From positions 1 through 64,000 of the forward strand of contig CAMBEZ010000008.1 of assembly GCA_945865885.1 (NCBI GenBank): a stretch of 64,000 nt of DNA, given 5' to 3'. Positions 2,129 through 2,427 of this stretch are shown here, piece by piece (position 1 is the first letter of the stretch; each line of letters begins with the position of its first letter). The translations under genes and the position numbers were made by a program. The notes beneath the pieces are model-generated. The model saw only the letters and a list, made by a program, of their open reading frames with translations. It made no database searches and was not told where the DNA came from. This stretch comes from Owenweeksia hongkongensis DSM 17368. Lineage in GTDB: Bacteria; Bacteroidota; Bacteroidia; Flavobacteriales; Schleiferiaceae.

Positions 2129-2155
2129 AAAACCCACGATTGCATCGTGGGTTTT
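2129..2155 (+). terminator. Rho-independent terminator after the membrane protein
   Basis: Perfect 12-bp stem (AAAACCCACGAT / ATCGTGGGTTTT) with a TGC loop. The A-run on the left arm and T-run on the right make it usable from either strand. Confidence 0.8.
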
Positions 2156-2164
2156 GATCCGTTC

Positions 2165-2183
2165 TGGGGGAGAGAGCGGGATT
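2165..2183 (-). repeat. Decayed copy of the tRNA-Ser 3' end
   Basis: This segment matches the 3' end of the intact tRNA-Ser (2338-2356), including the encoded CCA, at 18 of 19 positions; the only change is the discriminator base. On the minus strand it reads AATCCCGCTCTCTCC followed by CCCA. The rest of the tRNA is missing. Like the intact gene it is followed, in the tRNA direction, by a 12-bp hairpin with a TGC loop. Likely a relic of tandem tRNA duplication or an old attachment-site scar. Confidence 0.7.
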
Positions 2184-2228
2184 TTTATCGCTCCGCTCAA
2201 AAGATCCCTTGCCGGGGGGGGCTTCAAA

Positions 2229-2297
2229 GCAAAGCCCCCGCGCTCCGCGCGGCTGGGCTTTTTCTTTGCTCCCCACCTCGAATCCGTTCGGGTGGGT
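2229..2297. repeat. Two further strong hairpins in the tRNA-Ser downstream region
   Basis: AAAGCCC..GCGC..GCGC..GGGCTTT (about 2229-2261, followed by a T-run) and CCCACC-CGAA..TTCG-GGTGGG (about 2273-2297). With the terminators at 2129 and 2307 this gives four stable hairpins in 210 bp. There is no plausible coding sequence in 2102-2337. Confidence 0.55.
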
Positions 2298-2306
2298 CCC
2301 AATGAA

Positions 2307-2333
2307 AAAGCCCAACACTGCGTGTTGGGCTTT
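2307..2333 (-). terminator. Rho-independent terminator of tRNA-Ser
   Basis: Perfect 12-bp stem (AAAGCCCAACAC / GTGTTGGGCTTT) with a TGC loop. Read on the minus strand it is followed by a T-run and starts 4 nt after the tRNA CCA end. Confidence 0.8.
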
Positions 2334-2337
2334 GCTT

Positions 2338-2427
2338 TGGCGGAGAGAGCGGGATTCGAACCCGCGATACAGTTCCCCGTATACACACTTTCCAGGCGTG
2401 CTCCTTCAACCACTCGGACACCTCTCC
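2338..2427 (-). tRNA. tRNA-Ser (anticodon GGA)
   Basis: The minus strand gives acceptor GGAGAGG pairing with TCTCTCC, a D arm with GAGTGGTTGAAGGAG, an anticodon loop CTGGAAA with GGA at positions 34-36, a long variable arm as expected for a class II tRNA, a T arm GCGGGTTCGAATCCCGC, discriminator G and an encoded CCA. It reads UCC/UCU serine codons. A -7-like TACCTTCG lies 73 nt upstream and a strong terminator directly downstream. Confidence 0.95.

Follow-up and report, generated by a model that had tools for sequence, protein, structure and literature searches.

The 3′ ends of tRNA genes are classic landing sites for integrases. MITEs and REP/BIME-type palindromic repeats form families defined by sequence and are not known to target tRNAs, and for the attC sites of integrons we know of neither a four-way junction nor a tRNA-end target. 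In the mitochondria of sponges, repetitive hairpin-forming elements that recur in structure, invade intergenic regions and diverge between lineages are described in the abstract of PMC2800124. The locus considered here lies in a 64-kb stretch of DNA, the whole of which is referred to below as the window. Our preferred interpretation, to which we assign a probability of roughly three in four, is that a gene-less element defined by its shape inserts at tRNA ends, and that one such unit of 173 bp is present at the 3′ end of tRNA-Ser(GGA) in the window.

The tRNA-Ser(GGA) locus

The features of the locus, in the direction of tRNA transcription, are as follows.

2338–2427, minus strand: host gene tRNA-Ser(GGA) (ARAGORN and Rfam RF00005)
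2338–2356, minus strand: proximal copy of the 3′-end duplication, from the T-loop A to CCA, attL-like (18/19 repeat; duplication of the own tRNA elsewhere)
2184–2356, minus strand: whole inserted unit, 173 bp, gene-less (match to covariance model R1)
2327–2339, minus strand: outer stem, 5′ arm, starting in the encoded CCA (13-bp arm pair, 100% complementary; fold)
2305–2333, minus strand: hairpin 1 with T-run, intrinsic-terminator-like (perfect 12-bp hairpin; fold)
2254–2314, minus strand: hairpin 2, long arm, with T-run/A-run pairs at its opening (24-nt inverted repeat, 83% complementary; MFE fold)
2238–2252, minus strand: hairpin 3, short arm (MFE fold)
2225–2237, minus strand: outer stem, 3′ arm (13-bp arm pair; fold)
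2209–2224, minus strand: C-rich linker (sequence; likewise C-rich in several relatives)
2178–2208, minus strand: distal hairpin GGGATC...AATCCC (kept in genome G002 and genus g6)
2165–2183, minus strand: most likely the displaced original tRNA-Ser 3′ end, attR-like (18/19; aligned with the tRNA-Ser end of genome G074)
2129–2164, minus strand: probable original trailer with terminator hairpin at 2129–2155 (directly at the tRNA-Ser end in G074)

Sequence comparison bears out the original prediction that the tRNA 3′ end is repeated 173 bp away, 2165–2183 being identical to 2338–2356 at 18/19 positions. With up to three mismatches allowed, the 19-mer occurs at only two places in the window (0.04 expected; two occurrences in 0/100 shuffles). 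In the 17-nt end test described below, the site scores 16/17 for its own tRNA-end copy, and it stands outside the 90 sites tested there because it was missed by the scan. Perfect 12-bp hairpins with a TGC loop, also predicted, are indeed present after each copy, at 2307–2333 and 2129–2155. The common loop looks like a coincidence, because in G002, a genome of the same genus, the distal hairpin is identical and the proximal hairpin has another stem and loop.

Two further strong hairpins had been placed between the copies. Strong structures do exist there, although as parts of one larger fold rather than as separate units. The segment 2222–2341 folds with −71.2 kcal/mol (z = −8.1) on the tRNA-sense strand, a stability equalled in 0/200 shuffles. 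The insert forms a four-way junction, composed of the outer stem and three hairpins, followed by the distal hairpin. Hairpin 1 and the outer stem have their 5′ arm in common, and the displaced tRNA end begins with the very AATCCC that closes the distal hairpin. Covariance model R1, which was built without the window copy and includes the orthologous G002 copy as 1 of its 14 sequences, matches 2217–2339 with 38.7 bits (E = 2.4e-8).

The 154 bp between the two 3′ ends are too short for an integrase or an island, for which the original prediction had suggested searching in close relatives. The alternative that it offered, tandem duplication of tRNA and terminator followed by decay, is not supported in the window, where the repeat extends only from AATCCC onward and the two trailers differ. 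The second copy, taken for a decayed one, is real; in all likelihood, however, 2165–2183 is where tRNA-Ser(GGA) originally ended, and 2129–2155 is its former terminator.

Comparison with related genomes

Across 1.7 kb around the site, G002 is 91% identical to the window. It retains the linker, the distal hairpin, the displaced tRNA end and the old terminator, with 97.6% identity over the 84 nt from the distal hairpin on. The four-way parts of the two genomes have an aligned identity of 57% (shuffles 47 ± 3%; reached by 0/200), and G002 forms the same junction as the window, with z-values of −8.5 and −8.1, respectively. In G001, the third genome of the genus, tRNA-Ser(GGA) is followed by a plain terminator and there is no model match.

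In G074, from another genus of the same family, the distal trailer and terminator of the window are located directly at a tRNA-Ser end. This tRNA is split over two contigs, with 77 of its bases on contig C1, so that the empty arrangement is read across an inferred join at the contig break. Since G074 has this trailer and terminator at a tRNA-Ser end, the alignment suggests that 2129–2183 would represent the ancestral 3′ terminus of the tRNA together with the terminator belonging to it; what now serves the tRNA as end, trailer and terminator was probably brought in by the insert.

The window genome (G000) contains a second four-way fold, of different sequence, behind tRNA-Ser(UGA), after which the tRNA end, trailer and terminator are directly repeated over 62 bp. 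No such fold was seen by eye at 27 other tRNA loci of this genome (30 loci read among 34 tRNAs; 2 at a contig edge). The genes for tRNA-Ser(GCU) and one tRNA-Arg(ACG) are situated at contig edges (ends of C4 and C33), where a strong fold or repeat may have caused the assembly to break. The copy behind tRNA-Ser(GGA) of G089 (L043) is collapsed; it lacks hairpins 2 and 3 but still has both the linker and the distal hairpin, along with the ends of the outer stem. The fold is also found behind tRNA-Ser(GGA) in a complete genome of 4,000,057 bp (L020/L356, G005:C1).

Occurrence at tRNA and tmRNA ends

The first relatives were reached via the distal motif, which at up to three mismatches is present in 18/88 genomes (reversed-pattern control, 0). 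They belong to genus g6 and are positioned behind tRNA-Ser(UGA), tRNA-Ser(GGA) and tRNA-Arg(ACG). R1 comprises 14 copies, 12 behind tRNA-Ser and 2 displaced. At E ≤ 0.001 it matches 54/88 genomes and 12/19 genera of the family Schleiferiaceae, at 108 distinct sites with at most five found per genome. Where the scan gave rows on both strands at one place, the weaker was dropped to arrive at the 108 sites; in 2 of the rows kept, the scored strand is opposite to the tRNA. With its strict filters, model scanning missed the window copy and in G000 yields only the Ser-UGA copy; site counts are therefore lower bounds, and absence is weak evidence. Related species contribute orthologues to both the sites and the aligned sequences, so that the counts do not represent independent events.

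For 92/108 of these sites, the start lies no more than 30 nt away from a tRNA or tmRNA 3′ end (at −9 to +19 nt), with tRNAs of 12 anticodon kinds among the hosts. The hosts are Ser-UGA (20 sites), Gln (12), Leu-UAG (8), Ser-GGA (7), Arg-ACG (7), Val (6), Pro (6), tmRNA (6), Met (5), Ser-GCU (5), Cys (4), Gly (3) and Arg-UCU (3). Among the 16 remaining sites, 12 were checked for a tRNA-end sequence immediately preceding them on the scored strand, which was found at 13/17 or better in 8/12 and was lacking in four weak ones. The last four of the 16 are tandem copies behind tRNA-end copies (two in G065, one in G081) and a copy in G091. The G091 element is 2.6 kb from its tRNA, behind a tRNA-end-like repeat, with another insertion in between; the idea that it might be a self-transposing unit was rejected on account of this insertion. 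G092 resembles G091, its tRNA being off the contig. Presence is patchy within genus g12 (9/27 tRNA-Ser loci, read by eye), and in g6 the members at tRNA-Ser(UGA) look vertically inherited, the fold being retained at this position across species.

Members elsewhere in the phylum are sparser than in Schleiferiaceae. At E ≤ 1e-4, 52 of 395 genomes of the order match, 8 of them outside the family. Fifteen loci were retrieved from these eight, and at every one a tRNA (Pro, Ser, Met, Arg, Val, Ala or His) immediately precedes the first copy. Nine of 395 genomes of the phylum match. Five loci were read in other orders or classes; four of them have a tRNA (Pro, Arg, Leu or Cys) ahead of the copy, and in G433, from another class, the copy follows a tRNA-Ser-like end without a called tRNA.

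Conservation of the fold

Covariation was evaluated in alignment A4 (79 rows from 60 chosen loci), from which 14 antisense rows were removed to leave 65 sense copies with a median pairwise identity of 47%. Across 52 pairs in these copies, 92% of the cells are standard pairs, compared with 41–49% for slid partners, and at 45/52 pairs a minimum of three Watson-Crick types is represented, each by at least two sequences; A4 is fitted to the model, which biases these pair counts toward it. Folding without such fitting gives z < −3 for 65/65 copies, with a mean of −7.4 (40 shuffles each). The family thus appears to be defined by its fold and not by its letters, the shape being kept while the sequence has been almost wholly changed.

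In 60/65 copies the sense strand is more stable than the antisense strand, a result that is favoured by the use of a sense-strand model to find the copies, and G-T pairs outnumber A-C pairs (107 vs 56). Because of these two observations, the modelled folds point to the sense strand as the probable folded strand, either as RNA or as single-stranded DNA.

CTTG, closed by a G-C pair, very frequently forms the apical loop of hairpin 2, for instance as CAAGCTTGCTTG in 15/65 copies. A CTTG loop with this closing pair is exceptionally stable in RNA.

Duplicated tRNA ends and tandem arrays

Downstream sequence was sufficient at 90/92 sites. For each of these, the own 17-nt tRNA end was matched against positions +110 to +480, with 60–88 ends of tRNAs for other amino acids per site as comparison set. 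A copy of the own tRNA or tmRNA end at 14/17 or better is present behind the element at 17/90 sites, and at none of these 17 does any of the 60–88 foreign ends equal the own match. The duplications span Val, Ser, Met, Pro, Gln, Cys and tmRNA. Among element-free tRNAs from the loci examined, an end copy was found in 0/58 (best 12/17). A clear copy is missing at 73/90 sites, notably at most g6 sites, which we assume to reflect decay.

The trailer after the second copy differs from that after the first at 12/17 sites and is the same at 5/17 in a gapped comparison (13 and 4, respectively, when ungapped); two of the 12 differing pairs, in G072 (Met) and G093 (Ser), are weakly alike.

Tandem arrays, in which a tRNA-end copy recurs between units of about 172–202 bp, are formed by three units in G065 (Val; spacing 172 bp), two in G081 (Ser-GCU; about 200 bp) and four in G310 (Pro; 172–174 bp). 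The Ser-UGA array of G123 has four model matches and six tRNA-end places at 13/17 or better, including that of the tRNA itself. Repetition is confined to hairpin 2 and what follows it in G099 (Arg) and at some family f3 loci. At the tRNA-Arg locus of G099 (L053/L077), partial units from hairpin 2 to the distal hairpin form an array in which the distal motif occurs four times in about 0.6 kb. The distal hairpin was also considered as a mimic of the host T-stem, a resemblance that is good by eye; this was rejected, the own T-stem being strictly best at 1/26 sites.

As for the attachment-site reading in the original prediction, the recurrent duplication of the site's own tRNA 3′ end, the 0/58 controls and the G074 arrangement support an element of this kind. 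They do not describe a mere scar, because the stretch between the two ends is a conserved structured unit, catalogued at 108 sites in the family.

Alternative explanations and possible mechanism

The main rival to an inserted element is a cis-acting non-coding RNA with a cellular job, i.e., a structured 3′ trailer for maturation, termination or insulation of tRNA and tmRNA, held under RNA selection and spread by duplication or gene conversion. The greater stability of sense folds (60/65) and the excess of G-T over A-C pairs would suit such an RNA, although the sense-strand model favours both, and so would the terminator-like hairpin 1 and the persistence of the Ser-UGA fold across g6 species. 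Against this, transcription should stop at hairpin 1, ahead of the remaining fold, presence is patchy within the single genus g12, and a trailer RNA has no need for duplications of the own tRNA end or for tandem arrays. On balance, we consider a trailer RNA unlikely. The remnant of a larger island integrated at a tRNA end is a very improbable origin. It could draw on the g6 tRNA-Ser ends, at which insertions with integrase genes close by are found, but random remnants are not expected to covary at 45/52 pairs, nor to present one compact fold behind tmRNA as well as 12 kinds of tRNA, and again in other families. A simple tandem duplication of tRNA and terminator with decay of the second tRNA, which the trailers common to both copies in 5/17 cases (e.g., 62 bp at tRNA-Ser(UGA) of G000) might suggest, is likewise very improbable given that the trailers differ at 12/17 sites and that the window repeat starts only at the T-loop, with a structured unit as spacer.

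Under our preferred interpretation, a gene-less element inserted at the tRNA end, the insert would supply a replacement 3′ end (T-loop to CCA) together with a new trailer and terminator, and would also carry the four-way junction, the C-rich linker and the distal hairpin. The own end, trailer and terminator of the host would be displaced downstream and remain at 2129–2183. Movement may occur by site-specific recombination in the T-arm/3′ end of the tRNA, and the form recognised may be the folded sense strand, as RNA or single-stranded DNA. A tyrosine recombinase could perhaps help in trans, and such a helper is plausible because insertions with tyrosine-recombinase genes use the same tRNA-Ser end in g6, where these genes adjoin repeats of that end at some loci. 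The presence of integrase genes is by itself uninformative in this genus, because genes of the phage-integrase family are found in 25/25 of its genomes; among those examined, we identified none as a dedicated mobiliser of the elements. In the genomes analysed, we saw no excision, circle or strain-level pair with and without the element. Searches with the exact distal motif found no carriage by viral contigs, and searches with one g6 copy found none by plasmids and phages.

Serial modules with tRNA-end-like repeats at their termini were observed at tRNA-Ser(UGA) in four g6 loci, L169 (G103:C47), L170 (G104:C56), L171 (G100:C118) and L175 (G110:C319), and some of these modules adjoin tyrosine-recombinase genes. 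The tRNA-Ser(UGA) end of g6 looks like an integration hotspot.

Tentatively, we propose that these elements may represent a new class of mobile element, which would be gene-less, inherit its shape, travel in folded form (RNA or single strand), target the T-arm/3′ end of tRNA and tmRNA genes, renew the end and terminator, and accumulate in tandem.

Comparison with known systems

At gathering score, Rfam gave only tRNA and tmRNA in the window and in sets of six and eight loci, with no family over the element, and membership in an Rfam family was rejected for this reason. Searches of open-licence PMC papers, of limited coverage and with narrow multi-term filters, found no description of such elements. 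A family of about 170 bp that occupies integrase sites, is gene-less and recognisable by fold only, and did not turn up in Rfam suggests a layer of mobile or structured elements unseen by sequence-based annotation. It raises the questions of whether a mobile element can be conserved by structure despite near-total sequence replacement, and whether the folded strand is RNA or DNA. The elements are also relevant to annotation because such inserts can be mistaken for terminators, remnants of tRNAs or scars of islands. By its anatomy the kind of element is provisionally new, the comparisons below with MITEs, REP and attC being based on general descriptions of these systems.

Similarities to the sponge mitochondrial elements (PMC2800124) are noted in the recurrent hairpin structures in intergenic regions and their divergence between lineages. 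The sponge elements are mitochondrial, and the abstract names neither a tRNA-end target nor a duplication of the tRNA 3′ end.

In analogy to integron attC sites and gene-less cassettes, structure is kept as sequence varies, insertion at one site is serial and the palindromes are imperfect. The attC core RYYYAAC (R′/R″, RYYYAAC ... GTTRRRY) occurs six times at the window locus, with 6.9 expected. Two of the six matches are in the two arms of hairpin 1, where the motif is absent from the consensus of 14 relatives.

As for MITEs and REP/BIME-type repeats, the element is short, non-coding, hairpin-forming and presumably mobilised in trans. Unlike these repeats as generally described, its letters diverge (47% median identity), at most five sites per genome were found, and it is tied to tRNA ends. 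Neither the terminal inverted repeats nor the short target-site duplication of a MITE are present; the outer stem lies inside the unit and its sequence is not constant from site to site, and the duplication is the tRNA end itself.

With integrative elements (ICEs, IMEs, prophages and satellites) the element has in common the target at tRNA and tmRNA 3′ ends (92/108 sites within 30 nt), the restored tRNA, the displaced copy of its end and the accretion in tandem. The direct repeat on the far side is present at 18/19 positions in the window and at 17/90 sites, 73/90 being without a clear copy. Unlike ICEs, IMEs, prophages and satellites, the element is only about 170 bp long, carries neither genes nor an integrase of its own, the 173-bp insert being too short for such a gene, and has a conserved four-way fold. 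The unit works like a miniature tRNA-targeting integrative element minus the defining integrase.
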